A stretch of 64,000 bases of DNA, from NCBI RefSeq assembly GCF_003387475.1, contig NZ_QUNO01000014.1, positions 1 to 64,000 on the forward strand, in the 5' to 3' direction. Origin of the DNA: Kutzneria buriramensis. Lineage in GTDB: Bacteria; Actinomycetota; Actinomycetes; Mycobacteriales; Pseudonocardiaceae. Below, piece after piece: positions 28,278-45,371 of the stretch (positions are counted from its first letter, which is position 1; every line of letters begins with the position of its first letter). The notes beneath the pieces were generated by a model, which worked only from the letters and a program-made list of their open reading frames with translations, made no database searches and was not told where the DNA came from. A program made the translations under genes and the position numbers.

Positions 28278-28313
28278 CGGTCCCTGGCATTACTCCTCAG
28301 GTGCCAGGGACCG
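28278..28313 (-). terminator. Hairpin terminator of the diaminopropionate/NRPS operon
   Basis: Arms CGGTCCCTGGCA (28278-28289) and TGCCAGGGACCG (28302-28313) are perfect reverse complements with a 12-base loop. They lie eight bases beyond the stop of the last gene of the leftward operon. Confidence 0.75.
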
Positions 28314-28321
28314 TGCCGCCG

Positions 28322-29485
28322 TCAGCACTCGCCCGCCAGAGCCCGCTCGACCTCGTCGAGCCCTTGGGCGACGGCCACTCGGCCCGCGCCGGGTGGCGCA
28401 CCGCCCGCCTTCACTTCCCGCCCGGTGACCAGCAGGACCGTGGTTTCCAAGCGGTCGACCAGGCCGCGTTCGACGGCGCATTCCAGCCCGGCGAGCGCCG
28501 CCGCCCCGGCGGGTTCGGCACCCACTCCCGCCCGCCCGGCCAACGTCGCCACCGCGCTCAGCAGTGCGCTTTCGGTGACCGCCAGCAGTGAACCGCCGCT
28601 TCGGCGCACCGCGTCCAGCACGGCGTCACCGATGGCCGGGCGCACCACCGCGATGCCGTCGGCCGCCGTTCCCGCGGGATTCAGGTCCGCCGGCCCGGCG
28701 GGCACACCCGACCAGGCGCGCACCAACGGCTGGCAGCTCTCGGCCTGCACGCCGATCAGGCGCGGTTGCCGCGTGGCGAGACCGCAGCTGACGAGTTCGG
28801 CGAAGCCCTTGTCGAGCGCCACCAACGTGGGACCGTCGCCGACCGGGACGATCATCGCGTCCGGGAGCCGGCGGCCGAGCTGTTCCCACACCTCGAACGC
28901 CACTGTCTTCTTCGCCTCGATGGTGAACGGGTTGGCGCCGGTGTTGCGGTCGAGCCAACCGAACGCGCGCGCCGCGGCCCGGGAGAGGTCGACCGCGGCC
29001 GCGTAGCCCGCGGGCACCCGGAAGACCCACGCGCGGGCCTGCGTCATGAGCGCGAGCTTGTCCGGTTGGCAGTCCGTGGACACGAAGATGACGGCCCGCA
29101 TCCCGGCCGCCGCGGCGCCGACGGCGGTGGCCACGGCCGCGTTGCCGGTGGAGGCGGTCGTGATCGTGCCCACCCCGCGCCGCAGCCCGTCCTCGATCAC
29201 GAGTGCGGTGGCACGGTCCTTGTTGGACGCACTGGGATTCCGCGTCTCATCCTTGATCCACAGGTGCGGCGTGCCCGATGCCTTTCTGAGAGCCGGCACG
29301 GACAACAGCGGCGTGCCTCCGATCGGCATCGGGTATCGCACCGGACCGTCGGGCACCGGCAGCAGCTTCCGGTATCGCCACATGGTGAACGATGCCGGGC
29401 GCGTCCCCGCCATCAGCGCGGAGCCGTAGTCGTACTGCAGCCACTCGCATCCCGCCCGGTCGAGCGACCCGGTCACGCTACCCAT
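28322..29485 (-). CDS. Threonine-synthase-like PLP enzyme (fold type II)
   Basis: A 387-residue PLP-dependent enzyme related to threonine synthase / threonine dehydratase. The PLP lysine is K89 in NPSASNKDRAT, the phosphate-binding loop is TTASTGNAAVA, and a Gly-rich VPVGDGPTL follows. Substrate-binding TS residues are only partly kept, and it differs from housekeeping threonine synthase in the N-terminal 50 residues. It is the last gene of the Dap/NRPS operon, 18 bp after sbnA. It may make or modify the amino acid monomer, for example by beta-replacement or elimination on a phosphorylated hydroxy amino acid. That role is inference. Confidence 0.82.
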   Translation of the reverse strand: MGSVTGSLDRAGCEWLQYDYGSALMAGTRPASFTMWRYRKLLPVPDGPVRYPMPIGGTPLLSVPALRKASGTPHLWIKDETRNPSASNKDRATALVIEDGLRRGVGTITTASTGNAAVATAVGAAAAGMRAVIFVSTDCQPDKLALMTQARAWVFRVPAGYAAAVDLSRAAARAFGWLDRNTGANPFTIEAKKTVAFEVWEQLGRRLPDAMIVPVGDGPTLVALDKGFAELVSCGLATRQPRLIGVQAESCQPLVRAWSGVPAGPADLNPAGTAADGIAVVRPAIGDAVLDAVRRSGGSLLAVTESALLSAVATLAGRAGVGAEPAGAAALAGLECAVERGLVDRLETTVLLVTGREVKAGGAPPGAGRVAVAQGLDEVERALAGEC

Positions 29486-29503
29486 GTGGCAGCCCTCCGC
29501 ACC

Positions 29504-30487
29504 TCATGCCGACCGGGAACCGGTCAGCTCGTCGGAACCGAGCACGTCGTCGCCGTAGAGATCCTGTAGCCAGTTGGTCTGGTAGACGGTGTCGAGGTAG
29601 CGCTCGCCGAGGTCCGGCGCGATGGCCACCGCGGTGAGTCCACACGCGTCGTACCGGGACAGCCATTCCGTGGCGCCGCTGACCACCGTGCCGGTGGAAC
29701 CGCCGAACAGGAAACCGTTTCTGGCCAGGCGATGGCAGGCGCGAATGGTGTCCGCCTCCTCGACGTGCACGATGTCGTCCACATAGGACTCGTCGAGCAG
29801 CGGCGGGCGGACGCTCGTGCCCAGGCCGGGAATCATCCGGCGGGACGGGGGGCCGCCGAAGGTCACCGAGCCGGCGCTGTCCACCGCGACGACCCGCACC
29901 CGCCGACGCCATTGCCGGAAGTAGCGCGCGCAGCCCATCAGGGTCCCCGTGGTGCCCGCGCCGACGAACAACACGTCCAGCCCGGGGAACTGGCGGGCGA
30001 TCGCCGGCGCCGTCCGGCGGTAGTGCGCCCTCCAGTTGCCCGGGTTGGCGTACTGGTTGAGCCACACGTACCGGTCGTCGGAGGCGCACAACGCGCGGAC
30101 ATGGGCGAGCCGCGCGGCGAGGAAACCACCGACTGGATCCGGCTCGGTGATGACGTGAACCTCGCTGCCCAATGCCTCCATCATGCGCCTGGTCGACAGG
30201 TTGCACCGGGAGTCGGTCACGCACAGGAACCGGTGGCCCCTGCTCGCGGCGAGCATGCTCAGCGCCACGCCCAGGTTTCCCGACGAGGACTCGAGCAGGA
30301 CCGAGCCGGGCCGCAGGAGTCCGTCCCGCTCGGCGGCCGCCACCATCTCCGTCGCCGCCTTCAGCTTGATCGAGCCGGCGAAGTTGAAGCCCTCGCACTT
30401 CAGATAGAGCGAGCGCCCGACGATCGACCGAAGGTCGACGTAGAGCCCCTCCTCGTTGAAATCCTCGGGAACGGATATGACCGACAC
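29504..30487 (-). CDS. sbnA: 2,3-diaminopropionate biosynthesis protein SbnA-like synthase
   Basis: A 327-residue cysteine-synthase-fold PLP enzyme. The PLP lysine is K41 in GFNFAGSIKLKA, the substrate loop is ESSSGNLGV and the Gly-rich loop VGAGTTGTLMG. In staphyloferrin B, viomycin and zwittermicin pathways such enzymes join O-phosphoserine and glutamate to N-(1-amino-1-carboxyethyl)-glutamate. The SbnB partner encoded just upstream then oxidises that to L-2,3-diaminopropionate. The pairing makes the assignment strong. GTG start with a 36-bp gap to sbnB. The first 25 residues lack the usual IGNTPL block, so the N-terminus is slightly divergent. Confidence 0.88.
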   Translation of the reverse strand: MSVISVPEDFNEEGLYVDLRSIVGRSLYLKCEGFNFAGSIKLKAATEMVAAAERDGLLRPGSVLLESSSGNLGVALSMLAASRGHRFLCVTDSRCNLSTRRMMEALGSEVHVITEPDPVGGFLAARLAHVRALCASDDRYVWLNQYANPGNWRAHYRRTAPAIARQFPGLDVLFVGAGTTGTLMGCARYFRQWRRRVRVVAVDSAGSVTFGGPPSRRMIPGLGTSVRPPLLDESYVDDIVHVEEADTIRACHRLARNGFLFGGSTGTVVSGATEWLSRYDACGLTAVAIAPDLGERYLDTVYQTNWLQDLYGDDVLGSDELTGSRSA

Positions 30488-30523
30488 TCTTGACCCCCTG
30501 TCCGCGGCCCATGGACCGATCGC

Positions 30524-31579
30524 TCACCCATACCGACGCAGCTCGTGGAAGAAGTCGTCGACGACGTGCAGCTCGCCGGAGCGGACCACCTCGTCGTAGA
30601 CGTGCTTGCCCACCGCGAGGTCGAGCACGCCGAGACCGAACGGCGAGAACACCAGCGGCCGATCCGCCGGCGTTGCCGCCCGCCCGGCTATCACGTCGCC
30701 CAACGTGCCGTGGAGGAAGTCCCGGTTGCCGGTGAGCTGTTCGGCCAGGTGCGGCGAGGTGTCGGCCCTCAGGCAGTGTTCGACGTCGTCGACGATGTTG
30801 GTCGAGGCGAGCACGATCTCCGGTGCGAGATCGCGCAGGGACATGTGCAGCACCAACGGGTTGTGCTCGAACCACGACAGGTCTTCGACATGCGGCCGAC
30901 CGGCGTTGGTGGCGAAGACCACCAGGTCGCTGGCTCGGAGCAATTGCTCGGCGCTGTCGTACGCGGTGATCTGTCCGGCGGCGCCGGACCGTTCGAGGTA
31001 GCCGCGGAAGCCGGCGACGCTGTCCGGTGCCAGGTCGTACACGCCGGTCTCGTCGAACGACCAGCCGGTGCCGACCAGATAGGTGTGGATGTAGCGGGCG
31101 ATCAGGCCCGTCCCGAAGAACCCGACGCGCGTCGGGCGCCCACGGCCGCGGCTGAGCCAGTCGGCGGCCGACGCCGCCAACGCGGCCGTTCTGGTGGCGC
31201 TGATGATCGAGCCTTCCATGCAGGCGAACGGGTAACCGGTGTCGTGGTCGTTGAGGATCAGCACTGCCGACGCGCGCGGGAGGCCGGCCGCCACGTTGCC
31301 GGGGAAGCTGGAGATCCATTTCAGGCCGTCCACCCCCACCTGGCCGCCGATCGACGCGGGCAGCGCGATGATTCGGGCGGAGGGGCGGTCGGGGAAGCGG
31401 AGGAAGTAGGACGGCGGGTTCACCGAATCACCGGCGCTGTGCGACCGGTACGTGTCCTCGACCAGTTCCACGATCTGCTTCTCGCGTCCTCCCAGCGCGC
31501 GCTGCACCTGGGCGCCGGAGATCACGGCGAACGACGGCATGGGTCTGGATTCCGGTGCGGTGGAACGACTGGCGGTCAT
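30524..31579 (-). CDS. sbnB: SbnB-like dehydrogenase for L-2,3-diaminopropionate synthesis
   Basis: A 351-residue member of the ornithine cyclodeaminase / mu-crystallin family. SbnB landmarks: SVNPPSYFLRFPDRPSARI, GVDGLKWISSFPGN, GRPTRVGFFGTGLIARYIHT (Rossmann loop GxGxxA) and LRDLAPEIV. It would oxidise the SbnA product with NAD to give L-2,3-diaminopropionate, 2-oxoglutarate and ammonia. Start is the ATG overlapping the oxygenase stop (ATGA at 31576-31579). The gene lies between the oxygenase and sbnA in a leftward operon. Confidence 0.9.
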   Translation of the reverse strand: MTASRSTAPESRPMPSFAVISGAQVQRALGGREKQIVELVEDTYRSHSAGDSVNPPSYFLRFPDRPSARIIALPASIGGQVGVDGLKWISSFPGNVAAGLPRASAVLILNDHDTGYPFACMEGSIISATRTAALAASAADWLSRGRGRPTRVGFFGTGLIARYIHTYLVGTGWSFDETGVYDLAPDSVAGFRGYLERSGAAGQITAYDSAEQLLRASDLVVFATNAGRPHVEDLSWFEHNPLVLHMSLRDLAPEIVLASTNIVDDVEHCLRADTSPHLAEQLTGNRDFLHGTLGDVIAGRAATPADRPLVFSPFGLGVLDLAVGKHVYDEVVRSGELHVVDDFFHELRRYG

Positions 31580-32580
31580 CCGGCGGTCACCTCCACGGTC
31601 GGCGAGCAGTCCGCCAGGCGCACCGCGTCGGCCATCGCGACGAGCACTTCCCGTGATCCCTCGAAGGGCTCCCGGCCGTGCGCGGTGCGGAGGTTGTCGA
31701 CGACCATCAGGTCGCCGGCCTGCCACGGCTCGCGCACGGTGTGGTCCTGGTAGACCTCGTTGAGCAGCTGTACGACGTCGTCACCGATGGGGTCGCCGTC
31801 GCCGAAGCTGGTGTTGAACGGCAGCGCCTCGGCGCCGTAGACGTCGACCAGGTACTCCCGTACCTCGGGGGCCAGCGTCCACTCGTTGAGGAATGCGATC
31901 TGGTTGAACCAGCAGCGCCGGCCGGTGACCGGATGGCGCACGACGGCGCTGCGGCGCTGCCGGGTGCGCAGTCCACCGTCCGGTTGCCACTCGAACTCGA
32001 TCGCGTTGGCGCGACAGTAGCCCTCGACGGCCGCGCGGCTGTCGGTGCCGAACGCCTGCGCCAGGGAAGCGCCGATCTCGTCGTTGTAGTTGCGGGTGAG
32101 CAGCCAGCCCTCCCACTCGAACCGCTCGACCAGCTCGGTGGGCAGCGCGTCGAGCACGGTCGGCGAGTCGGCCGTCACGGTCGCTCCGCCGGCGGCGGGC
32201 GCTCGCAGGCACGCGAACAGCATCAGGCCGGGGAACTCCAGCGTGTAGCTCAGTTCGTGATGCATGCACATCTGCTGGTTCGGCGGCCACTTCGATGCCG
32301 AGTACACGCCGTCGGAGTAGACCCGCCGCGGCGCGAAGGACTCCCGATCGGTCATCAGGCCGGTGGCCATGCGCCGAAAGACGGCGCTCGTCTCGGCCTC
32401 GTCGCGCAGCGACAGACCACGGACCAGAACCGAGCCGTGCTCGGCGACGACGGCGCGCACCGCATCCCGGTGCTCGGCGATCCAGCCCGTCGCGTCGCCG
32501 GCGGCGTCGGTCCGCAGTATCGGTGGTTTGCCGGGTCGCAGGTCCACATCGAGCAGTGCTGCCGGGGACGAGAACGACAT
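31576..32580 (-). CDS. Clavaminate-synthase-like (TauD/SyrP type) oxygenase
   Basis: A 334-residue Fe(II)/2-oxoglutarate oxygenase. The iron site reads H107-x-E109 in MCMHHELSY with the distal His in DNLRTAHGREPF. The Glu (not Asp) variant is typical of amino-acid hydroxylases in nonribosomal peptide pathways (VioC, AsnO, SyrP). It most likely hydroxylates the Dap monomer, either free or bound to a carrier protein (inference). It follows the adenylation gene after a 122-bp spacer that carries a hairpin repeat, and is coupled to sbnB by ATGA. Confidence 0.88.
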   Translation of the reverse strand: MSFSSPAALLDVDLRPGKPPILRTDAAGDATGWIAEHRDAVRAVVAEHGSVLVRGLSLRDEAETSAVFRRMATGLMTDRESFAPRRVYSDGVYSASKWPPNQQMCMHHELSYTLEFPGLMLFACLRAPAAGGATVTADSPTVLDALPTELVERFEWEGWLLTRNYNDEIGASLAQAFGTDSRAAVEGYCRANAIEFEWQPDGGLRTRQRRSAVVRHPVTGRRCWFNQIAFLNEWTLAPEVREYLVDVYGAEALPFNTSFGDGDPIGDDVVQLLNEVYQDHTVREPWQAGDLMVVDNLRTAHGREPFEGSREVLVAMADAVRLADCSPTVEVTAG

Positions 32581-32702
32581 CTCGGTTTCCTTTCAATGTT
32601 GTTGCCGCGCGTTCCGCGCGGGGCTCGGCCCCTTCGGGGCCGGTGCCTTGCCCTTGCCGGGCAAAGCGCCGGCGGGGCCTCACGAGGCTTGGGCTGTGGC
32701 GT
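32581..32702. repeat. Hairpin-rich intergenic repeat, copy 1
   Basis: The spacer between the adenylation gene and the oxygenase gene contains back-to-back hairpins: CCGCGCG-TTC-CGCGCGG and CGGCCCC-TTC-GGGGCCG. Bases 32603-32633 are identical over 31 nt to the reverse complement of 58836-58866, and homology continues to about 32679 (GCGCCGGCGGGGCC shared). Confidence 0.75.
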
Positions 32703-35147
32703 TCACGAGGAAGCCAACAGTTCGGCCAGGTCGGCGAGGATCGGGTGCGAGACGAGGTCGGCGGGGGACACCGCGCGGTCCAGGGCGATGGCCAGCCGCA
32801 CCGCCGACAGCGACGTGCCGCCGCGGTCGAAGAAGTGGTCCCGCCGGCCGATCTGGTCGGTGCGCACGCCGAGCACCTCCGCCCAGGCGGCCGCCAGCCG
32901 CTTCTCGGCCGGCGTGCTGGGCCCCTGCCCGTTCTCCGCTGTGCCGTCCCGGCCGGCGAGTGCCGTGAGCGCCGTCCTGTCGATCTTGCCGTTCGGGGTC
33001 AGCGGCAGGCTTTCCAGCCAGTGGAAGGCCGTCGGGACCATGTAGCCGGGCAGCGATTCCGCCAGCCGGCCCCGCAACTCGTCGGCCGCCAGCGGCTGCC
33101 GGCCGGAGTGGAAGGCCACCAGGCAACTGCTCCGGTCCGCCCGCTCGGCGACCACCACCGCCGCGTCGCGGACACCGGGCACCCGCGCCAGGGCGTTCTC
33201 GACCTCGCCGATCTCGATCCGGAAACCGGAGATCTTGACCTGGTTGTCCCGGCGGCCGAGGAATTCCAGCTTGCCGTCAGGCTGCCAGCGGCCGTAGTCG
33301 CCGCTCCGGCAGACGCGCCGGCCCTCGCGGTGCGGATCGGCCATGAAGACCGCGCGGCTGCGCTCGGGGTCGTTGACGTATCCGCGGCCGACGCACACCC
33401 CGGAGAAGACGATCACGCCGGGGGCGCCCAGCGGCACCGGCGACAGGTTCTCGTCGACGACGTAGACGTGCACGTTGGCGATGGGACGGCCGAGCGGGAC
33501 CCGGTCCCGGTCCGGCGCCCGGTCCATGACCTCGTGGACGGCGTCGTCCGAGGTCTCGGTCAGCCCGTACGTGTTGACCAGCTTGATCCCGGGCTGGGCG
33601 GCGAACCAGCGGTGCACGAGTTCCCGCTTGAGGAAATCACCGGTGGGCGAGACGGTGTGCAGGTCCGGCAGTTCACGGGGGCGCCGCTCCAAACAGGACA
33701 GGAAGACGTCCAGATAGGACGGCACGACCTGGAGCACGGACGCCCTGCCGTCGACGATGGTGTCGACGAACCGCTCGACGTCCAGGACGGTCTCCTGCTC
33801 GACCAGCAGGGTCCGTCCGCCCACCAGCAGCGCGGCAACCAGCTGCCACACCGAGATGTCGAAGCACTGGGGTCCGGTCTGGGGGACCACCTCCCCCTCG
33901 CCGATCTCCAGATCGGCGATCTTGGCGCGGATGTGGTTGAGCATGCCCGCGTGCTCGCACATCGCGCCCTTGGGTGTTCCGGTGGAGCCCGAGGTGAACA
34001 GGATGTAGGCGAGTTGGTCCGGCGCGACCTCGACGCCGAGATCGCCGTCGGCGTGGTTCTCCTCGTACGCCGTGTCGACACGGACCTTCCGAACGCCGGG
34101 GAGGGTGGCGAGGGCGGCGTCGAGCGTGGCGGTGCTGCCGCGTTCGGTCAGCACCAGGCCGCACTCGGCAAGGGAGAGTGCGGTCGCGATGCGACCGGCC
34201 GGGAAGTGCGGCTCGATGGGCAGGTACACGCCGCCGGCCTTGAAGATCCCGAGGACGGAGGCCATCCAGTCCAGGTTGCGCTCGGTCACCACCGCGACGA
34301 CGCCCTCGCGGCGTAGGCCTCGCGCCAGCAGTGCCCGTCCCAGCTGGTTGGCGCGGGCGTTGAGCTCCCGGTAGGTCCACTGCCGCTCGCCGTGCACGGC
34401 CGCGATCGCATCCGGGTGCATCCGCACCCGCTCCTCGAACAGCTCGTGCACCCGGCGGTCCGGCAGCTCTCGGCGAGGTCCGGCGAGCCCGTCGAGCTGG
34501 AAGCGGAGTTCTTCGTCGGAGAGCAGGCTCTGCCGGCGGTGCTCGGCGTCCGGATCGGCGGCGATCAGCGCGAGCGCGCTGCGGTGGTAGCCGGCGATCC
34601 TGGCGGCGCTGTCGGCGTCGAGCACGTCGGTCCGGTACCGCAGCCGTAGCCCGCCCTCCGGTGGAAGTTCCACCCACAGCACGGTTTCCTCGGCGAGGTC
34701 CCCGCCGATGCCGGTCGGATCGAACACCACCTCGAACGGCGGTCTGGTCGTGCTCGACTCGCCGCCGAGCTCGTCGAGCGGAAAGTCCTTGTGCGACAGG
34801 AGCTCCGACTCGGCGCGATGGGTGTCACGCACCATTTCCCGCCACGAGCCGGGTTCGGTCGTCAGCCGGCAGGGCAGGGGCCGGCCGCCCGTCGCGGGGA
34901 CGTAGCCGGTGGCGACATCGGGCTCGCCGGACAGCGCGGCAAGCACCTTGGCGTGCGCCGCCAACAGCACCGATTCCCACGACACTGCCCACTCGTTCGC
35001 CCGCCGGCGCAACGCCGTCGTGACATCGTCGGGAATCGCCGAGTGATGCTCGGCAATGCCCGGCGTCGGGTCGAGGGTCCACCGCGGGATCGCGGTGAGT
35101 CCGCCGGCGTTGAGCACGCCGCGCCAGAACTCCGCTGACACGTCCAT
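32703..35147 (-). CDS. Nonribosomal peptide synthetase: truncated C domain - adenylation - carrier
   Basis: An 814-residue protein. Residues 1-215 resemble only the C-terminal lobe of a condensation domain; the HHxxxDG active-site motif is absent. A full adenylation domain follows (about 230-730): FTSGSTGTPKG (384-394), FDISVW (429-434), NTYGLTET, DYGRW, GRRDNQVKISGFRIE and the A10 Lys721 in NGKID. A carrier domain ends the chain with the phosphopantetheine Ser779 in GGTSLSA. My by-eye specificity code is D-I-W-Q-V-P-T-D-D; two acidic pocket residues would fit a substrate with a side-chain amine, such as the Dap made by its neighbours (inference). Start has AGGAGGAG upstream, 11 bp after the preceding gene. 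Confidence 0.9.
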   Translation of the reverse strand: MDVSAEFWRGVLNAGGLTAIPRWTLDPTPGIAEHHSAIPDDVTTALRRRANEWAVSWESVLLAAHAKVLAALSGEPDVATGYVPATGGRPLPCRLTTEPGSWREMVRDTHRAESELLSHKDFPLDELGGESSTTRPPFEVVFDPTGIGGDLAEETVLWVELPPEGGLRLRYRTDVLDADSAARIAGYHRSALALIAADPDAEHRRQSLLSDEELRFQLDGLAGPRRELPDRRVHELFEERVRMHPDAIAAVHGERQWTYRELNARANQLGRALLARGLRREGVVAVVTERNLDWMASVLGIFKAGGVYLPIEPHFPAGRIATALSLAECGLVLTERGSTATLDAALATLPGVRKVRVDTAYEENHADGDLGVEVAPDQLAYILFTSGSTGTPKGAMCEHAGMLNHIRAKIADLEIGEGEVVPQTGPQCFDISVWQLVAALLVGGRTLLVEQETVLDVERFVDTIVDGRASVLQVVPSYLDVFLSCLERRPRELPDLHTVSPTGDFLKRELVHRWFAAQPGIKLVNTYGLTETSDDAVHEVMDRAPDRDRVPLGRPIANVHVYVVDENLSPVPLGAPGVIVFSGVCVGRGYVNDPERSRAVFMADPHREGRRVCRSGDYGRWQPDGKLEFLGRRDNQVKISGFRIEIGEVENALARVPGVRDAAVVVAERADRSSCLVAFHSGRQPLAADELRGRLAESLPGYMVPTAFHWLESLPLTPNGKIDRTALTALAGRDGTAENGQGPSTPAEKRLAAAWAEVLGVRTDQIGRRDHFFDRGGTSLSAVRLAIALDRAVSPADLVSHPILADLAELLASS

Positions 35148-35158
35148 CGAGCTCCTCC

Positions 35159-37708
35159 TCATCCCTGGTCGCCGATCGCAGCAACGCCGACGCTGTCGTC
35201 GCGGCGGACCTGCGTGTGGGGTGCGGTGTCGGGCATCTCGCGGGCCGGGTTTCCGCCCCACCGGGCGTGCGGCGGAACCTCCTCGCCCTTCATGAGGAAG
35301 GAATCGGGGGCGAGCACCGCGCCGTCGCCCATCGTCACGCCGTAGTGGACCAGCGCGCCGACCCCGATGGTGCAGCCGGAACCGATGCTGGTGCGGTCGG
35401 ACTTGAAGACGTAGTCCTCCTGCGAGTGGCACTGGACGAACGAACCGGCGTTGAGGGTGACGTCGTCGCCGATCGTCACCATGTTCTTCTCGGACATGCC
35501 GCAGCCGTCGTCGAAGAGCCTCCGGCCGAGCCGGACGCCCACCATCCGCCAGAACCACGACTGGAGCGGCGTGCCGATGAAGGCCGCCTGAAGCCCCGGT
35601 CCCGTCTGCATCTTGAAGAAGCGCTCGGACCGCCAGAAGTCGATGTCGTAGATCGAGCAGTACTTCGGCCGCATTCCCCGGAATCCCGTGGACGCGCGTT
35701 CCACCAGCGCGACGTGCGTCAGAGTGAACAGCAGGATGAGCACTTCGGACAGCGCGAGCGCCGACGCGCCGAACGAGGGGCGCAGGCTCGCGGCGAGGAA
35801 GCCGAACACCGTGAGCCCGAAGGTGTAGCTCCACCGCGCCAGCAGCCAGTACCCCATGGTGCGGAGGTTGTGCCGGTTCTTGGCCGCGAGCCGGTGGCGG
35901 ACCTCGTCGCCGTTGGCGAGGTGGTTGAGCTTCGCGTCGCGGTCGACCGTCCGCGGGATCTCGAAGCTGGGCGACCCCAGGAGCCCGACGCCCTCCCGGA
36001 TCTCCCCGTCGATCGGGACGAGGACCTTCGTCGCGAGCAGGCAGTTGTCGCCCGTCCTGCCCCGCGCGGGATAGACGATGTCGTTGCCGAGGAAGTTGTT
36101 CGGGCCGATCGACGTCCGGGACACGCGGAAGGACGTGCTGGAGTAGTCCGCGTTGGCGATCGACAGCCCGCTGGCGATGACCGTGCCGCTGCCGACGGAG
36201 CTCAGGTAGGGGTTCTCGTGCTTGACCTGCGAGCCGAAGTTGGACCCGGTCTGCACTACGGGGGAGAGCCGATAGCCGAGGCAGCGCAGGTAGTGGACGA
36301 TGTAGGAGCTGTCGCCGAAGAGCTCGACGAAGAACCTCCTGTTGGTCAGGCCCATGATCGCGTGGTGGGCCGCGTAGCGGATGCCGTACAGGCGATAGAC
36401 CTTGCCCGGTTCGATGACGAGGTTGAGCAGGCGAGGGACGGTGACCACCAGGAGGAGGCCGAGCAGCGCGGCGCCGAAGAACAGCACGAGCGATGTCACC
36501 AGCGCGACACCGACTACCGTCCAAGCCGCGGAGGCCGAACCCGAGTCGGACAGTGCCCCGAGCCCCGGAACCGCGTTGAACAGCCAGTCCGTGGCGCCCA
36601 GTATCAGCGGCACGTACAGCAGCAGCGTGCTCGCCAGCTGCCCGACGCCGTAGACGGCCCTTCTCCCGACGCCGCAGTCGGCCGGCGCGACCGCCTGGTA
36701 GTCCGCTTCGGTCGGCTGCGCGGGGGAACCGTGCCAGCGCTCGGCATGAGGTATGCCCTGTCCCGTGTGGAGCGCGGAGACATGGCCGAGCTGGGCCCCG
36801 TCGCCGATCGAGGTCTCGATGTCGAGCACCGCCTTCTCGCCGACGAACGCGTCCTGCCCGACGGTGACCGCGCCCGTCTGGATCCAGCCGGCGCGGGCGC
36901 GGTAGCCGGTGAGGTAGGTGTCCTTCCGGATGACCGCGCCGTCGCCGATGGTGAGCAGGTCGGTGCACACGGGCGCGTGCCGCGAGAGGATCACGACACC
37001 ACGGCCGATCCGCGCGCCCAGCGCCCTCAGGTAGAGCACGTAGAGCGGCGAACCGGCGAACAGGACCGCCGGGTTCAGCGTGACCAGCGTCTTGACCAGC
37101 CAGAACCGGACGTAGGCCAGACTCCAGACGCGGATCCGCCGGCGTTTCCACCGACCGATGAGCGTCCATTTCGCCGCGATCGGCAGGGCGCACGCGGCGA
37201 GGAAGGCCACACTCCCGACCAGCACCGTGCGCAGGTAGTCGTCGAGCAGGTTCCCGCTGGCGGCGATCCACTCGATGGCTTGGTCGAGGCCGAGCGCGAC
37301 GAGGTAGGCGTACCCGAGCAGGAGCAGGACCTGGAGCGTTCCGCAGAGAACGTACTGCCGCGTGCTCCCCGGCGGCTCCACCTCGACGGGCGCCCTGGCC
37401 GGCTCGACGGGCGTGTCGCCCGGGGGTGCGAGCGCCGCTGCCAGGCTGGCGATCGTGGGGTGTTGGTAGACGTCCTTCATGGACACCGACGGCAGGTCCG
37501 CCCGTTTCCTGAGCCTGGCGCAGAAATGGGCCATCACCAACGAGTCGGCGCCGAGATCGTCGAAGAAGTGGCTGTCGACCGGCACGTGCTCGACGCGCAC
37601 GACGTCGGCCAGCACCTCGGCGAGGATCCCCGCGGCGTCGGCGCCGCACCGGATGGTCGACGGTTCGGCCGGATCGGCCGTCACGGTCTCGACAGACTTG
37701 CCCGTCAC
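35159..37708 (-). CDS. Carrier protein fused to Pls-type NRPS terminal domain (membrane, hexapeptide repeats)
   Basis: An 849-residue protein. Residues 20-95 form a carrier domain with Ser56 in DDLGADSLVMAHF. The rest matches the NRPS terminal domain best known from epsilon-poly-lysine synthetase (TIGR02353). It has several transmembrane helices (near 130-190, 345-430, 645-690) alternating with three blocks of left-handed beta-helix acyltransferase repeats (IGDGAVIRKDTYLTGY, VGSGTVIASGLSI, IGDDVTLNAGSFVQCH). In Pls these blocks catalyse iterative amide bond formation at the membrane. Here the adenylation domain is on a separate protein. GTG start with GGGAG upstream. It is the first gene of the operon; the XRE-WD40 regulator gene lies upstream on the same strand. 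Confidence 0.88.
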   Translation of the reverse strand: MTGKSVETVTADPAEPSTIRCGADAAGILAEVLADVVRVEHVPVDSHFFDDLGADSLVMAHFCARLRKRADLPSVSMKDVYQHPTIASLAAALAPPGDTPVEPARAPVEVEPPGSTRQYVLCGTLQVLLLLGYAYLVALGLDQAIEWIAASGNLLDDYLRTVLVGSVAFLAACALPIAAKWTLIGRWKRRRIRVWSLAYVRFWLVKTLVTLNPAVLFAGSPLYVLYLRALGARIGRGVVILSRHAPVCTDLLTIGDGAVIRKDTYLTGYRARAGWIQTGAVTVGQDAFVGEKAVLDIETSIGDGAQLGHVSALHTGQGIPHAERWHGSPAQPTEADYQAVAPADCGVGRRAVYGVGQLASTLLLYVPLILGATDWLFNAVPGLGALSDSGSASAAWTVVGVALVTSLVLFFGAALLGLLLVVTVPRLLNLVIEPGKVYRLYGIRYAAHHAIMGLTNRRFFVELFGDSSYIVHYLRCLGYRLSPVVQTGSNFGSQVKHENPYLSSVGSGTVIASGLSIANADYSSTSFRVSRTSIGPNNFLGNDIVYPARGRTGDNCLLATKVLVPIDGEIREGVGLLGSPSFEIPRTVDRDAKLNHLANGDEVRHRLAAKNRHNLRTMGYWLLARWSYTFGLTVFGFLAASLRPSFGASALALSEVLILLFTLTHVALVERASTGFRGMRPKYCSIYDIDFWRSERFFKMQTGPGLQAAFIGTPLQSWFWRMVGVRLGRRLFDDGCGMSEKNMVTIGDDVTLNAGSFVQCHSQEDYVFKSDRTSIGSGCTIGVGALVHYGVTMGDGAVLAPDSFLMKGEEVPPHARWGGNPAREMPDTAPHTQVRRDDSVGVAAIGDQG

Positions 37709-37837: not shown

Positions 37838-40800
37838 CTAGGCGCAGGGCGGGTCGTAGGGAGCGTCGCCGAAGTAGCGATCCCACACGTCGTTCGAGAC
37901 GGGGTCGCGCGTGATGTCGCAGATGTGTTCCGCCACCAGGTCGGCGTCGGTCTCCCACAACCGGGTCGTGTGGTCGTGGGCGACGGTGGCGATGGTGTGG
38001 CCGTCCGGGCTGAACGCCACGGCGAAGACCGCGGTGAGGTGTTCGGCCGACAGGACGGCCGTCGCGCTCGGATGCTCCGGGTCGGTGACGTCCCACAGCC
38101 GTACGGTCCCGTCGACGCCGGTGGAGGCGAGGGTGTCGCCGTCCGGACTGAAGGCGGTGCCGAAGACCATGCCGCTGTGTCCGGTCAGGGACGGCAGCGG
38201 CCGCGGCCCCCGCGGGTCGGTGACGTCCCAGAGCCGGATCACGCCGTCCCACGTCGCCGTGGCGACCAGGTCCCCGTCCGGGGAGAACACGATCGATCGC
38301 ACCGGTTGGTCCAGGCCGCCGACCGTGCCGACGAGCGTCGGCTTGCGCGGGTTGCTGACGTCCCACAGCCGTGCGGTCTTGTCCCAGCTCGCGGTGGCCA
38401 GCAGCTTGCCGTTGGGGCTGAACGCCACCACACGAACGGTTTCGGTGTGGCCGGTCACCGTGCTCAGCAGCGCGGGCGCGCGGGCGTTCCTGATGTCCCA
38501 GAACCGGACGGTGTGGTCGTCGCTCGCGGTGGCGAGCAGTTGGCCGTTCGGGCTGAACGCCACCCAGCGGATCTTGCCGTTCTGTCCGGACACGGTCGCC
38601 AACAGGCTCGGGCGGCGCGGATCGGACACGTCCCACAGGCGGGCGGTCCTGTCCCAGCTCGCGGTGGCCAGCAGCCGGCCGTTGGGGCTGTAGGCCAACG
38701 AGCGAACCGTGTGGGAGTGGCCGGTCGGCGTCGCGGACAACAGGGCCGGCCGACGAGGATTCGAGACGTCCCGCAGGCGTAGCGTGCGATCGTCGCCCGT
38801 GGTGGCCAGCACCCGGCCGTCCGGGCTGAACGCGACGGCGTAGACGGCGTCCGCGTGGTCGGCCAGGGCGGGACCGGTGACCTCCCACAGCCGGGCCGTG
38901 TTGTCGGCACTGGCCGAGGCCAGGGCGGTCCCGTCGCGGCTGAACACCAGGGACGTGATCGCGTCGGTGTGGCCGTTCAGCACCGCGACCGGACCCGGCC
39001 GGCGTGGATCGCTCACATCCCACAGCCGGATCGTGCGATCCTCGCCCGCCGTGGCGAGCATGTGGCCGTCCGAGCTCAACGCGACCGCCCCGGCCGTGCC
39101 ATCCGGTCCCGGCAGCGTGGCGGCCAGGTCGGCGTGCCGTGGATCGCTCACATCCCAGAGCCGGACGGTGCGGTCCTGACCGGCGGCGACCAGCAGCCGG
39201 CCGTCCGAACTGAACTCGGCCCCGAGTTGGCCGTTCCCGGCGAGGGAGCCGACCAGCCGAGGATCGGACCGGTCGGCCACGTCCCACAGCCGCACCGACC
39301 GGTCGTAGCCCACGGTGGCCATCGTGTCGCCGCGCGGGCTGAAGGCGACCGCGCGGGCGCCGGAATGCCCGCTCGTCCGACCGGCGGGCCTGGGCTGCTG
39401 CGGATCGCTGAGATCCCACAGCTGAACCTCGCGGTCGCGGTCCACGGTGGCCAGCACGGCCCCGTTGGGCGCGAAGGCTGTCGACCCCACGGCGTCGGCG
39501 TGGTTGGGAATGGTGCCGAGGTCGCGCGGTTCGTGCCGGTCGGCCACGTCCCACAACCGAACCGTCCCGTCCGTGCTGCCCGTGGCCAGCAGATTCCCGA
39601 CCGGGCTGAACGCCGCCGAGCCGACGATGTCGTCCGACGCGCGGGTCACGTCTCGGCTCGAGGCCAGCGGGCTCGGCTGCCACCAGTCACTGAGATCCCA
39701 CAGGCTGAAGCCACTTCGCGTGGTCGTGGCGAGCGTTCGGCCGTCCGGGCTGAGGGCGAGCGCGTCCGTGAGATCCGCTCCGCTCGTCAGGACCGTGGCC
39801 CGCGGTGCGGCCCAGGAACCCAGCAGACTGCTCCGGGTTTCCACCGTGGGCATGAGGCGGTAGGCGGCGAGGCTGAGCTGACCCGCCAGCTCGGGGTTGG
39901 CGGCCCGCAGTCCGGTCGCCTCGCTGGCCACCTTCCCGGAGATGGCCAGGTTCCGTTGCTCGATGGTGTCTTCCCGGGCCTGTACCGCGTACATGGTCGC
40001 CGCGGCCGCGAGAAGGATCAGGACGGTGAGACCGGCGACGAGTCGGCGAAGGCGACGGGTGTGGTGGCGTGCGGCCTGATGTTCGTCCTGCTCGAGCTGG
40101 ATCGAGGCGTCGAGGAACTGGCGGGCCAGTGGGGTCACACCGCCGCCGGGGCCCGCCTCCTGCACCGATTCGCGCACGGCGGCCAGGCGCGGGCCTCGGT
40201 AGAGGGTGGCCGGGTGTCGGCCCTCGCGCTCCCAGGCCTCGGCGGCGTCGATGAGCCGTTGCCGGCTGAGCAGCCAGGCGCGGTCGTTGTCGATCCAGCC
40301 GCGCAGCCTCGGCCAGGCCCGCAACAGGGCTTCATGGGTGATCTCCACGAAGTCGCGGTCCAGGGTGAGCAGCCGGGCCGCGACGAGCGCCTCCATGGCG
40401 ACGGCGGACGCGGCCTGATTCGACGACTGGCCCACCAACCGGTCACGTTCGATGCGACGGCCGCTGTGCTCGCTGTCCTCGCCGATGCGCACCAGACGCA
40501 GCAGCAGGTGGCGGGCTTCCCTCTGTGCGGTCGCGTCCAGGCTGGTGTAGACGCGTTCGGCCGTGGTGGCGACCGCACCGTGGATGCCGCCCGTGAGCTG
40601 GTAGCCGGCCACAGTCAGGCGGTTGCCCTCCCGCTGCTGCCAGGTCGCCAGCAGCGCATGGGAAAGCAACGGCAGGACGCGCGATTCATAGGTCGCGTGT
40701 TCGTGGTCGGCGCCGTGCTCGATGCCGAGGTCGCGCAGCAGTATCTCGACCAGTCCGGGTTCGAGGTCGAGCTTGGCGGCCCGGGCCGGACCGGTGACCG

Positions 40801-41686
40801 CCTCGATGAGCTCGGCCCGGTTCATCGCGGTGACGGCGAACTGGTTGTCCTGGACCGCGCCGAGCAGCTCGGCATGGCTCAGGCAATGGCTGTAGAAGTC
40901 GGCCCGCACGCCGACCACCACCAGCGCGGCCGCCCGCTGACCGCCGTCGCCGGGACGGGACGCGTCGCACAGCGCCCCGATGAACGCCCCGTGCTCGCTG
41001 TCGTTCTCGCACAGCGTGAAGACCTCCTCGAACTGATCGACGATCAGCACGAGGCGGCCCTCGCCGGGCCCGAGCGTCATCCGCAGCGTCGAACCCCACC
41101 GCCCCGCCCGGATCTCGTCGCGCAGTTTGCCGGCGGGTATCCCCAGCAGCGGGGCCGCGTGCTCGGCCAGCGCGGCCGTCGGGTGCGCGGTCGGCGTCAT
41201 CACCAGCACCGGCCAGCCGGCCGACCCTGTCGCCGGCAGGGCGCCGGCGGCCAGGGCGGGAATCAGTCCGGCGGACAGCAGCGAGGACTTGCCCACGCCG
41301 GACGCGCCGAACACGATCAGCGGCTGATCGCGGTCGACGCACTCCGCGACTCGGCCGACCAACGCCGCCGTGCTGCGCGCCCGACCGAAGAACCAGCGGG
41401 CGTCCTCGGGACCGAACGCCGCCAGCCCCGGGTACGGGCACGCGGGGGCGTCGTCGGCCGGGGCCACCAGGCCGGCCAGTGCCCCGTCGGCCTGGAGCAC
41501 CTCGTCCACCCGGCGGGCCAGGTCCGGCGTCGCCGGTTTGTGGCCGTTCTCCACATTGCTCAGATAGCCCCGGCTGTAGTGGGTGAGCCCGGACAGCTGG
41601 GACAGTGACAGTCCTTGCTCGTGACGCATGCGCCGCAACGCGGCCGCGAAGCCCTGTGCCTTTCTCGAGCCGTTTTCCCTGTTCAC
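37838..41686 (-). CDS. XRE helix-turn-helix / STAND NTPase / WD40 regulator
   Basis: A 1282-residue signal-integrating protein. Residues 10-70 are an XRE helix-turn-helix ([20 protein letters not shown]). A STAND/NACHT-type NTPase follows with Walker [11 protein letters not shown] and Walker [13 protein letters not shown]. After a membrane-like helix near 545-565 ([20 protein letters not shown]), the C-terminal half is a run of about 14 WD40 repeats, each ending in variants of ARLWDVSDP. It is probably a ligand-gated, membrane-tethered transcription factor. It sits between the Dap/NRPS operon and a divergent PLP/MFS operon, so it may control both. GTG start. Confidence 0.9.
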
Positions 41687-41943: not shown

Positions 41944-43038
41944 GTGAACGGGTCACCGGGGCGTCCGGGCAGGTGTGCGGATCTCGCTTCGACCGTGGGA
42001 AACACGCCGGTGCTGTGGATAGATTCCCCGTTCGCGCCGGGGAATCGAGGATTCTGGGCGAAGCTGGAGGGGGCGAACCCCGGTGGGATGAAGGACCGAC
42101 CGGCCCTGCACATGGTCACACGTGCGCGGGAGCGTGGTGAACTCGCCCCGGGCTCGATGATCGTCGAGTCGAGCAGCGGATCCTTCGGTCTGGGCCTGGG
42201 ATTGGCGGGAATCGCCTTCGGCCACCCGGTGACGGTTGTGACGGATCCCGGCATGGAGCCGATCGTGCGGCGCACACTCCGCGCGCAGGGGGTACGGGTG
42301 GAGGTGGTGCGCCAGCCCTGCCCGGTCGGAGGCTGGCAGCAGGCTCGGTGCGACCGGGTGCGGGAACTGCTGGCGACGTGGCCGGGCGCGTACCACCCCG
42401 ACCAGTACGGCAATCCCGACCATGCCGCGGGTTACGCGACCCTCGCGTTGGAGTTGGTGGCACAGCTCGGCTGGATCGACGTGCTGGTGTGTTCGGTCGG
42501 CACGGGTGGTCACTCGGCCGGCGTCACCCGGGTGCTTCGGACGTACTTCCCGCAGCTGCGGCTGGTCGGCGTGGACACGGTGGGATCCACGATTTTCGGT
42601 CAGCCCGCCTGGGGGCGCCTCATGCGCGGTCTCGGGTCGAGTGTCTATCCGCGCAACGTCGACTACGCCAGCTTCGACGAGGTCCATTGGGTGGCGCCGG
42701 CCGAGGCGGTGTGGTCGTGCCGGCAGCTGGCCAGGACTCGGTACGCCAGCGGCGGCTGGAGTGTGGGCGCGGTGGCCCTCGTCGCGGGGTGGATCGCCCG
42801 GACGCAGCCGTCGGACCTGTGCGTGGTGGCGATCTTTCCGGACGGTCCGCTGCGCTATTTCGACACCGTCTACAACGACGGCTACTGCCGGCGCCACAAG
42901 CTGCTCGACGCGCCACCGGCCGCCCAGCCGGACGAGATTCCCGATCCGTCGGCCCGCGAAGTCACCTCCTGGACGCGCTGCCGACGTGTGGTGGATCCGC
43001 TCACCCGGCCGAAGCGCGGCGGGGCGAGACGGTGCTGA
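41944..43038 (+). CDS. Cysteine-synthase/SbnA-like PLP enzyme (second copy)
   Basis: A PLP fold-type II enzyme of 364 residues from the GTG at 41944; other GTG codons (for example 41917) are possible starts, so the N-terminus is uncertain. Motifs: STVGNTPVL, the PLP Lys50 in [25 protein letters not shown] and [11 protein letters not shown]. The C-terminal part, with [14 protein letters not shown], matches a block also found in SbnA (YLDTVYQTNWLQDL) and in the third copy (YLDTIYDDTWIRDH), so all belong to one SbnA/CysK-like subgroup. GTGCTGA overlap couples it to the MFS gene. Function may be a beta-replacement making a diamino acid or a modified cysteine (inference). Confidence 0.83.
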
Positions 43039-44303
43039 GCGCGATCCGATCCGTCCGGTCGCTGTCCCGAACCGCGCAGTTGTTGCTGCTGAACCAGTTC
43101 GGCGTCAACCTCGGCTTCTATCTGCTGATTCCCTATCTGGCCACGCATCTGCGGGAGACCCTGCACCTGTCGACGGCCGTCATCGGGGCGGTCATCGGCG
43201 CGCGCACTCTCAGCCAGCAGGGGCTCACCCTGTTCGGCGGGTCGGCGGCGGATCGCCTCGGATGCCGGCCGGTGATCATCGCCGGATGTGCGCTCCGCAC
43301 GGTCGGATTCGCGGCGTTCGCGTTCCTGGACAGCCTGCCCGGGCTGTTCGCCGCGACCCTCCTGACCGGTGTCGCGGGCGCGATGTTCAGCCCGGCCGCG
43401 CGGGCGTACCTGGCGCACGAGTCCGGCGACCAGCGACTCCGGGCGTTCGCGTTGCTCAACGTGGCCGGCGAGGCCGGAACGCTGCTCGGCCCGCTGCTCG
43501 GCGGCGTGCTGCTCGGCGTGGCATTTCCCGTCGTGGCGATCACGGCGGCAGCTGTCTTCGCCCTGCTGACCATGGCCCAGCTCGTCGCGCTGCCTGCTCG
43601 TCCACCGCGACCGGCAGTGCAGTCGGTGCTGATGGACTGGCGAGAACTGTGCGTCGATCGGCGTTTCCTGCTCTTCGTCTGCGCCACTTCCGGAATGTTC
43701 GTGCTGTACAACCAGCTCTACCTGGCCCTACCGCTGGAGGCCAGTCGTCTGTCCGGGGTGGCCAGCACGGTCGCGTTGCTGTTCGTCGCCTCCACCCTCG
43801 TCACCCTCGGCCTCCAGGTCCGTGTCACCAACTGGTGCCGGCGCCACTGGGAGCCGACAACGGCCATCGGCGTCGGACTTGCGTTGTGCGGCTTGGCCTT
43901 CGTGCCGCTGGCTGTGACCGGCTCCGTGCAGTCGACCGCGGCCGGGCCGCACGACGGCGGGATGGCGGCTGCGTTGCTGTCCTTGCCGGCCATCTTCCCG
44001 GTGGTGGTGGCGACGATCGTGCTGACACTCGGCGTCGTCGTGGCGCAGCCGTTCGTCCTGGATCTCGTTCCGGCATTCGGACGTAGCGGGCTGACCGGCA
44101 CGTATCTCGGCGGCTACGCCATGGCCGCCGGGATCGTCGCCACGATCGGCAACATCGCCGTCGGTTGCGTCGCCGATCTGGGGATCCGTCTGGACATGCC
44201 GTGGCTGCCTTGGCTATTGCTCATCGGTCACGGGCTCGCCGGCACGGTCCTGATCGGCGTGGCGCGCGCCCACGCGACGTTTCCTGCTCGAGACGGCTCG
44301 TGA
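43032..44303 (+). CDS. MFS efflux transporter
   Basis: A 423-residue major facilitator protein with about twelve hydrophobic helices. The MFS loop motif 2-3 appears as [15 protein letters not shown] and motif C-like sequence as [18 protein letters not shown]. Start is the GTG that overlaps the PLP gene stop (GTGCTGA). It stands between two SbnA/CysK-like genes and is the obvious exporter or self-resistance pump for the product of this locus; that is inference from position. Confidence 0.88.
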
Positions 44304-44318
44304 CAAGGAAGGACGCTC

Positions 44319-45371
44319 ATGCGTTGTGACACCATCCTCGACGCCATCGGCAACACGCCGCTGGTGCGCCTCAATCGGCTCACCGAGCCGACCGACGCGG
44401 CGGTGTGGGTCAAGCTCGAGTGCCTCACCCCAGGGGGCAGCGTCAAGGCGCGGCCGGCCCTGGGCATGATCCGCGCGGCGCTGCGCTCGGGAGCGCTCAC
44501 CGCGGACGGCACCATCGTCGAAGCCACGTCCGGGAACTTGGGCATCGCGCTGGCGATGATCGGCTCCGCGCTAGGCATCAGGGTGCAGATCATGATCGAT
44601 CCCCGCACGCCCGCGCCGAGCGCGCGGACCATCGCCGCCTACGGCGCCACACCGATCCTGGTCGAGGAATCCGACGAGCACGGCAAGTACCAGATCCCAC
44701 GGATCCAGGCGGCCGAAGCCGTCGGCCGAACCGTTGCGGGCGCCTATGTGCCCAACCAGTGGGACAACCCGGACAACCCGGCCGCGCACCGCGAGGCTGC
44801 CTCGGAAATCGTCGACGACCTCGACGGTGACGTCGATGCCATCGTGTGCGCCACCAGCAGCTGCGGCCAGCTCACCGGCATCGGCCGATGGATCAGACGA
44901 GTCCGCCCCGACTGCCTGATGGTGGCGGTGGACGGCCGAGGCTCGGCCGCGATCGGCGGTCCCCTCGGTCAGCATCTTCTGGTCGGCCTCGGTTCCGCTT
45001 TCACCCCGGGCAACTTCGACCCCGCAACCGTCGACGAGGCGTACTGGTGCGGCGACGCAGAGGCATTCGGCACCTGCCGGCTACTCGCGAGCAATGAAGG
45101 TATGCTGCTCGGCGGCTCGTCGGGCGCCGCCGTCTTCGTCGCACTGGCGGTCGCCCGACGACTGGGTCGTCACCACAACGTCGTGGCCGTAGCACCCGAC
45201 GGCGGCGATCGCTACCTCGACACCATCTACGACGACACGTGGATTCGAGATCACGACCTCACTCTCGCCTCTACCGTGGCCCAACTCCGTGAACGGCTGG
45301 CGGACTACTCTCCATTCCCCGGAGACCAACTCAAGCCGTGGCGCCACTATCCCGCCAGCCCCGAACCGTGA
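44319..45371 (+). CDS. Cysteine-synthase/SbnA-like PLP enzyme (third copy)
   Basis: A 350-residue PLP enzyme. AIGNTPLVRLNRL, PLP Lys43 in TPGGSVKARPAL, EATSGNLGIALAM and the C-terminal LLGGSSGAAVFVAL are all present, so the fold and active site look complete. GGAAGGA lies seven bases before the ATG and 15 bp after the MFS stop, so it is the third gene of that operon. With sbnA, the 41.9-kb gene and the threonine-synthase-like gene it makes four fold-type II PLP enzymes in one locus. Confidence 0.88.
   Translation: MRCDTILDAIGNTPLVRLNRLTEPTDAAVWVKLECLTPGGSVKARPALGMIRAALRSGALTADGTIVEATSGNLGIALAMIGSALGIRVQIMIDPRTPAPSARTIAAYGATPILVEESDEHGKYQIPRIQAAEAVGRTVAGAYVPNQWDNPDNPAAHREAASEIVDDLDGDVDAIVCATSSCGQLTGIGRWIRRVRPDCLMVAVDGRGSAAIGGPLGQHLLVGLGSAFTPGNFDPATVDEAYWCGDAEAFGTCRLLASNEGMLLGGSSGAAVFVALAVARRLGRHHNVVAVAPDGGDRYLDTIYDDTWIRDHDLTLASTVAQLRERLADYSPFPGDQLKPWRHYPASPEP

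Follow-up and report, generated by a model that had tools for sequence, protein, structure and literature searches.

A Pls-type terminal domain separated from its adenylation domain and linked to an oxygenase and putative diaminopropionate supply genes in Kutzneria buriramensis

A 64,000-nt stretch of Kutzneria buriramensis DNA (contig NZ_QUNO01000014.1 of assembly GCF_003387475.1, positions 1 to 64,000; hereafter the window) carries one minus-strand operon transcribed in the order PCP-TERM, A-PCP, TauD, SbnB, SbnA and a threonine-synthase-like pyridoxal phosphate (PLP) enzyme, where A is an adenylation domain, PCP a carrier domain and TERM, as used throughout, the membrane terminal domain of poly-lysine synthetases (Pls). 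We have high confidence that this operon is a functional unit with Pls-type chemistry. Taken as a whole, it is best explained as a trans-loaded relative of the synthetases of poly-lysine and of poly-L-2,3-diaminopropionate (poly-Dap), a reading to which we give somewhat better than even chances. A more specific version is put forward tentatively, as rather less than an even prospect: in a membrane polymerase of the Pls type, the original A domain decayed and a free nonribosomal peptide synthetase (NRPS) loading module took its place, which would charge the polymerase in trans to give a polymer of oxidised Dap. What can be read from the sequences is the gene set and its order, the descent of the A domain, the decayed built-in A domain of relatives that have the gene set nearby, and the conserved TERM residues.

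The operon and the loading of its terminal domain

With gene starts set by a codon-bias caller, the operon contains the following genes and domains.

35159..37708, minus strand: PCP-TERM, 849 aa, with a carrier at residues 29-93 and a Pls/PosA terminal domain at residues 121-822, without an adenylation domain (PP-binding, TIGR02353)
37430..37624, minus strand: carrier domain of PCP-TERM, with Ser56 (PP-binding)
35243..37348, minus strand: TERM domain (TIGR02353, 708.9 bits against a cut-off of 423.1, profile positions 1-695 of 695)
32703..35147, minus strand: A-PCP, 814 aa, start possibly at 35186 (AMP-binding, AMP-binding_C, PP-binding)
34872..35138, minus strand: condensation-domain remnant on A-PCP, without HHxxxDG (Condensation, 24.0 bits, sub-threshold against a cut-off of 30.6, profile positions 194-284 of 456)
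32964..34439, minus strand: adenylation domain, pocket code DIWQSTTDDK (code comparison)
32715..32900, minus strand: second carrier domain, on the A protein (PP-binding)
31576..32580, minus strand: TauD-superfamily Fe(II)/2-oxoglutarate oxygenase with an HHE...H site (PF02668, 161.7 bits)
30524..31540, minus strand: SbnB homologue, start possibly at 31579 (TIGR03944, 414.9 bits against a cut-off of 326.9)
29504..30487, minus strand: SbnA homologue with the GSIK lysine (TIGR03945, 389.1 bits against a cut-off of 349.95)
28322..29485, minus strand: threonine-synthase-like PLP enzyme, accessory (below the cut-offs of threonine-synthase-like families)

The original prediction for this DNA placed homologues of SbnA and SbnB, an oxygenase, an A-carrier protein and a carrier-TERM protein in one operon. 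Profile searches found all of them, with TIGR02353, SbnA and SbnB above their curated cut-offs; the threonine-synthase-like gene was absent from that account. The separation of the A and terminal parts into two proteins was likewise borne out, as was the lack of a functional condensation (C) domain, the N-terminal remnant being sub-threshold and smaller still in some relatives. The prediction also regarded these proteins as the split parts of a Pls enzyme. The terminal domain is indeed of Pls type, but the A protein was not cut from Pls. In the A-domain tree, built by a quick method with Shimodaira-Hasegawa-like approximate likelihood ratio (SH-aLRT) support only and with several long branches, the window A domain falls among canonical NRPS A domains, apart from Pls and from the fused members of its own TERM clade; the row L135_1, labelled 'fusedII' within the split group, is the separate A-PCP of locus L135. 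The window A domain is 56%, 52% and 44% identical to those of loci L141, L143 and L144, and 27-32% identical to the fused clade members listed. Tree and identities together led us to reject a broken-off Pls A domain. To judge from its sequence, A-PCP derives from an ordinary NRPS module (C-A-PCP-TE, where TE is a thioesterase) that kept its own carrier, so that the system has two carriers.

Motifs were surveyed in 82 family A proteins, the window's among them, with a length of 600 aa or more and an identity of 45% or more. HHxxxDG occurs in none of them. A C-terminal TE-like part, scored by a length above 950 aa plus the pattern G-[HFY]-S-[SAM]-G, is present in 49 and absent from 33, some of which are cut by contig ends; in the one protein tested, from L039, Pfam verified the TE (PF00975, 61.7 bits). 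The window protein is among the 33, in agreement with the original prediction of no thioesterase, but TE-less release is not a family trait. A complete C domain hidden in the longer relatives (1,080-1,100 aa) was rejected, since the extra length is C-terminal, with the Thioesterase match in L039, and HHxxxDG is lacking throughout. The carrier-serine pattern was missed in 8 of the 82 A proteins and in 9 of 101 TERM proteins.

How an A-less terminal domain may be fed is indicated by relatives in which A, PCP and TERM are fused. We compared 29 such synthetases (20 fetched regions, hand-picked for long frames, and 9 other loci), scoring the gene set as present where an A protein at a minimum of 58% and/or TauD at a minimum of 55% lay within the stretch read. 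Among the fused proteins without the gene set, 17 retain both the P-loop and the catalytic Lys, L050 having been placed with them by eye (FTSGTTGTPKG with the catalytic Lys; the motif pattern had required Y), and one, L158, is decayed. Beside part or all of the gene set, the two motifs are broken or missing in 11 of 11 (Fisher's P = 3e-7, with kinship ignored). Not among the 29 is L121, whose frame is partial and whose A part looks decayed. Since the built-in A domain is decayed beside the gene set, loading of the synthetase in trans by the free A-PCP is most likely, and for TERM of the window we regard such loading by A-PCP as probable. Read plainly, loading passed to the free A-PCP, the built-in domain decayed, and the line leading to the window lost it altogether.

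Under a different explanation, A-PCP(-TE) and TauD would yield oxidised Dap that the TE sets free, and PCP-TERM would have a separate task, for instance the transfer of a single amino-acyl unit onto a lipid or an acceptor at the cell surface. An A-PCP with an oxygenase and a TE is a common route to beta-modified amino acids in other NRPS systems, and the 49 A proteins with a TE-like part after the first carrier suit it, as do the best fold matches of TERM, which are partial and to hexapeptide acyltransferases. The 33 A proteins without a TE do not, nor does a PCP-TERM that has no A domain of its own: together with the decay of the A domain in fused relatives beside the gene set, this makes TERM seem to depend on that set. 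We consider monomer tailoring of this kind decidedly improbable.

A separate fused case was seen on a plasmid of the alphaproteobacterium Skermanella mucosa (L146). The diaminobutyrate transaminase gene ectB lies directly before the fused A-PCP-TERM gene, which suggests a linked supply for a poly-2,4-diaminobutyrate synthetase.

Recurrence of the operon and conservation of the terminal domain

The split layout was sought in 100 loci: 20 (L037-L056) came from a PCP-TERM search in 394 genomes of the class, and 80 (L057-L136) were the best 80 of 562 loci in a scan of named genomes, and some loci may belong to both sets. Of the 100, 66 have the genes strictly in the order TERM, A-PCP, TauD, SbnB, SbnA, which is more than chance, and a split by chance or assembly error was rejected because the layout recurs in named genomes. 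The other loci are cut by contig ends, have SbnA moved or an extra gene in between, are fused, or lack the partners. The operon is present in many Streptomyces, in Pseudonocardiaceae and in others, and may account for a number of orphan clusters. Named hosts of TERM include Kutzneria sp. CA-103260 (78%), Kibdelosporangium, Amycolatopsis decaplanina, Actinoplanes, Pseudonocardia, Blastococcus, Modestobacter and many Streptomyces. In the window's family, 83 of 297 genomes have a TERM match at E 1e-200, its own genome included.

Other arrangements of TERM were also noted. Two plasmids (L148, L145) carry PCP-TERM genes without an annotated A partner in the stretch, beside genes for ion and metal transport (cation diffusion facilitator, mechanosensitive channel, ZIP transporter, CopC). 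On a contig labelled Candidatus Rokuibacteriota (L096), PCP-TERM is followed by the start of an A-like protein, which could be a transfer or a binning error. The genome of the window encodes three further Pls-type synthetases with fused A domains, at C16:157218, C13:396558 and C3:105951. The last of these is below the family cut-off, and its code, DSECYGGVTK, is the one given for a Bdellovibrionales homologue in a passage of PMC10522769.

Ser56 of the PCP-TERM carrier is invariant in alignments of 47 and 56 rows. Carriers are retained on TERM proteins, and some members have two or three in tandem (L066, L051, L053, L135); in L066, three closely similar carriers precede TERM. The predicted structure of the 849-residue protein (predicted local distance difference test, pLDDT, 81.6; predicted template modelling score, pTM, 0.80) shows long helices in three pairs, with a strand-rich repeat after every pair that we interpret as a beta-helix; hydropathy peaks likewise speak for the predicted membrane helix pairs. 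This layout is in line with the modelled architecture of PosA in the parts consulted of PMC10522769. The best PDB fold matches were hexapeptide acyltransferases, with partial coverage. Residues were compared between 10 classical Pls rows and 53 clade rows, with the window excluded from defining the conserved columns. The window TERM matches 45 of the 47 positions conserved in both groups, among them Q759, H761 and D765, and the motif QxHSQED was found in 88 of 101 TERM proteins.

Monomer, oxygenase and product

From their sequences, SbnA and SbnB are proposed to make Dap in this operon. The gene context of the nearest A relatives points to a 2,3-diamino acid as the likely substrate of A-PCP. 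The L144 domain adjoins sbnA and sbnB, and the L141 and L143 domains adjoin genes for a PLP enzyme, a lyase and a kinase, which may be a 2,3-diaminobutyrate (pacidamycin-type) set. The codes are DIWQATCDDK in L141, DIWQSTADDK in L143 and DIWELTADDK in L144; DIWQSTADDK recurs in 73 of the 87 unfused rows compared. A literature search for DIWQSTADDK, the window's DIWQSTTDDK and DIWELTADDK returned no match. Overall, the monomer is quite probably Dap or a near relative.

The window code differs from the common one by Thr at pocket position 7. Among A proteins above 500 aa, the size counted in the survey of gene order and codes, this Thr occurs in eight loci besides the window. Seven of the eight have a threonine-synthase-like gene, and the remaining one, L062, is on a contig too short to show it. 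Outside these seven, the gene is absent from all 93 loci, where the readable codes have Ala in 74 cases, alongside three lone or odd A rows. On the TERM tree, from which L062 is absent, the window groups with the seven in one clade, and the Thr code and the extra gene may reflect a single event. An alignment of the threonine-synthase-like protein to threonine synthase PDB 2d1f yielded no functional assignment.

Of the 85 loci that hold an A protein, 80 also encode TauD, and the five without it lie on contigs that are cut short. Of 83 TauD family members, 82 have the motif MHHE and 77 the second His motif. Foldseek matched At3g21360 and the general TauD family only; identity is 51% to the Kitasatospora relative (L141) and 34% to the oxygenase of the Pantoea dapdiamide cluster. 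The original prediction spoke of possibly hydroxylated Dap. The linkage of the oxygenase held up, but the wording understated it, since an oxygenase in 80 of 85 loci should make oxidation central to the reading. In L128, L131 and L139 (Pseudonocardia alni), TauD lies directly after TERM with SbnA and SbnB not seen nearby, so TauD seems to belong with TERM. L128 (Streptomyces) and L131 (Blastococcus) have, in addition to TERM and TauD, a lone AMP-binding enzyme with a different code, and the Streptomyces contig of L128 carries the five-gene operon elsewhere (L124).

Both the 80 of 85 loci and these three TERM-TauD pairs count against plain poly- or oligo-Dap, that is, the same linear beta-isopeptide as that of the poly-Dap (PDAP) synthetase, with the oxygenase confined to a side reaction or to late tailoring of a few units. 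Nor would the synthesis of such a product require two carriers, an A domain on a separate protein or a TE. It is nevertheless a natural polymer made by a Pls-type enzyme, according to the parts consulted of PMC4668381, and Dap supply genes are linked to the window TERM. Moreover, two fused members of the window's TERM clade (L049, L134) have the code DFECLSVVTK, and passages of PMC10522769 give Phe at position 2 for the synthetases of PDAP and poly-diaminobutyrate (PDAB) and Glu at position 3 for the whole group. On balance we find plain poly-Dap unlikely.

One Streptomyces is known to produce a polymer whose repeated dipeptides consist of Dap alone (Takehara 2021, as cited in passages of PMC9606270 and PMC10522769). 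Whether the operon makes this polymer can be asked because two carriers, one Dap-type A domain and a dedicated Dap supply would suit a two-Dap repeat. The name of the polymer shows no oxidised residue, however, and would leave the conserved TauD unexplained; the passages of PMC9606270 and PMC10522769 tie no gene cluster to it, and one in PMC10522769 mentions an A-carrier-terminal-domain protein as its maker. We regard this origin as very improbable.

In the scheme that we prefer, with the free A-PCP loading TERM in trans, SbnA and SbnB would produce Dap, and A-PCP would activate it (or a close relative in the Thr-code clade) and load its own carrier. The DdaC-like oxygenase may then oxidise the carrier-bound unit, the timing and site of this step being presumed as well. 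The A domain would charge the PCP-TERM carrier too, either in trans or by carrier-to-carrier hand-over, and the membrane TERM would form amide bonds repeatedly, as in Pls, to judge from homology and conserved residues. In many relatives, the thioesterase beside the first carrier might clear or release units. The product would be an isopeptide polymer or oligomer of Dap with some or all units oxidised; for an oxidised polymer or oligomer we see the chances as evenly balanced. If the scheme is true, the separate carrier gives the oxygenase, and in many relatives the thioesterase, access to the monomer, and a widespread, unrecognised class of modified isopeptide polymers exists in actinobacteria.

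Several observations weigh against this scheme. In L158 the fused A domain is decayed with no gene set in its 19 kb, and in L087 the gene set adjoins a second, split copy of TERM. The gene-set call for L119 rests on a 58% A fragment at the contig end and that for L139 on TauD alone. The decayed label needs four changes on the TERM tree, of which well-supported branches force at least two, and the decay may thus rest on few events. In 12 of the 100 loci, nine of them outside the fused intact group, none of A, TauD, SbnA and SbnB accompanies TERM in the stretch read, and the window TERM deviates at two of the 47 conserved positions, 319 (Ile for Val) and 513 (Ser for Asp). Thr at position 7 together with the extra PLP enzyme suggests a changed monomer, so in the Thr-code clade (the window and seven loci) the monomer may not be Dap. 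The code of DdaD, from the dapdiamide pathway, is quite different. Finally, beta-hydroxylated Dap with a free beta-amine is an unstable carbinolamine, which makes oxidation of a beta-acylated unit, or desaturation, as likely.

At higher window coordinates lies a further block on the opposite strand.

41995..43038, plus strand: SbnA-related PLP enzyme (SbnA2), probable accessory in the window's closest kin (below the SbnA cut-off)
43032..44303, plus strand: MFS transporter, possible exporter, in a block with SbnA2
44319..45371, plus strand: cysteine-synthase-like PLP enzyme (CysK), in a block with SbnA2 and the MFS transporter

The whole SbnA2-MFS-CysK block adjoins TERM in two of the 100 loci (L057, L059). 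SbnA2 alone was also seen 2.8-4.5 kb from TERM in G517, G500, G533, G553 and G566, and this distance holds in six of six family genomes that have SbnA2 at 80% or above, the window's own among them. At E 1e-90, 143 of 297 family genomes contain an SbnA2 homologue, and some of these, G394 for example, show no TERM match at E 1e-200. This rarity beside TERM and occurrence without TERM led us to reject the block as a general core, and it is probably a lineage-specific accessory. Between the operon and the block, a large protein (37838-41686, minus strand) has an nSTAND1 NTPase domain, 11 WD40 stretches and, by eye, a helix-turn-helix-like start; its relatives in L057 and L059 are 86% and 73% identical.

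Relation to known systems

Searches of the literature, which covered titles, abstract openings, passages and few subscription papers, brought up no description of the split layout. The nearest A domains outside TERM operons, among those compared, are those of Kitasatospora NBC_00039 (L141) and of a Streptomyces NBC_01351 plasmid (L143). TauD is also present in L141. Both differ from the window in having the PLP enzyme, lyase and kinase genes in place of sbnA and sbnB, and in having no TERM in the stretch.

The dapdiamide pathway on a Pantoea agglomerans plasmid (L137) resembles the operon in that genes for a PLP enzyme, SbnB, TauD, an A-PCP and an alpha/beta hydrolase are adjacent; the gene order there is PLP enzyme, sbnB, TauD, NRPS, alpha/beta hydrolase, ddaF, ddaG. 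It differs in that the stretch contains no TERM, that ddaF, ddaG and an amidotransferase gene follow, and that DdaD is 29% identical and has another code. DdaC of this pathway oxidises a Dap derivative tethered to a carrier, as stated in a passage of PMC12451424.

A precedent for loading in trans is provided by capreomycin biosynthesis, where, according to passages of PMC12400406, CmnA-A1 loads Dap in trans on CmnI. As proposed here, one Dap-specific A domain serves a second, A-less carrier protein. In contrast to the window, however, capreomycin as described there uses an ordinary C-domain assembly line and an MbtH-like helper, with no membrane TERM.

The combination of Dap with a Pls terminal domain is not new, since the parts consulted of PMC4668381 describe a one-chain poly-Dap synthetase with an SbnA/SbnB-type supply. 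This enzyme, from Streptomyces albulus PD-1, shares with the window a Pls-type terminal domain fed by SbnA/SbnB-type enzymes. Its A, PCP and terminal domains are one chain, its supply genes NjxA and NjxB are not close, and no oxygenase is mentioned in those parts, which also report Ser and Orn, in place of O-phosphoserine and Glu, as the substrates used by NjxA/B.

Compared with Pls and PosA (TIGR02353), the window has a terminal domain above the cut-off, the three helix-pair repeats and all but two of the shared conserved positions. Its A domain, however, is on another protein and of other descent, it has two carriers, and it is linked to an oxygenase and, in many relatives, to a TE. According to passages of PMC10522769, known homopoly(amino acid) synthetases have Asp at position 1 of the pocket and Glu at position 3; the window pocket has the Asp but carries Trp at position 3. 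The window thus works like a Pls-type system yet misses two published family features, the single chain and the A pocket. There are still relatives whose built-in A domain is decayed, which bears on what substrates TERM accepts and on its feeding in trans. If TERM can be fed in this way, polymer chemistry could be changed by swapping the soluble loading protein, with the membrane enzyme left as it is. As far as the published descriptions seen go, Pls and PosA synthetases are single chains that load one unmodified amino acid, whereas here loading is separate from polymerisation.

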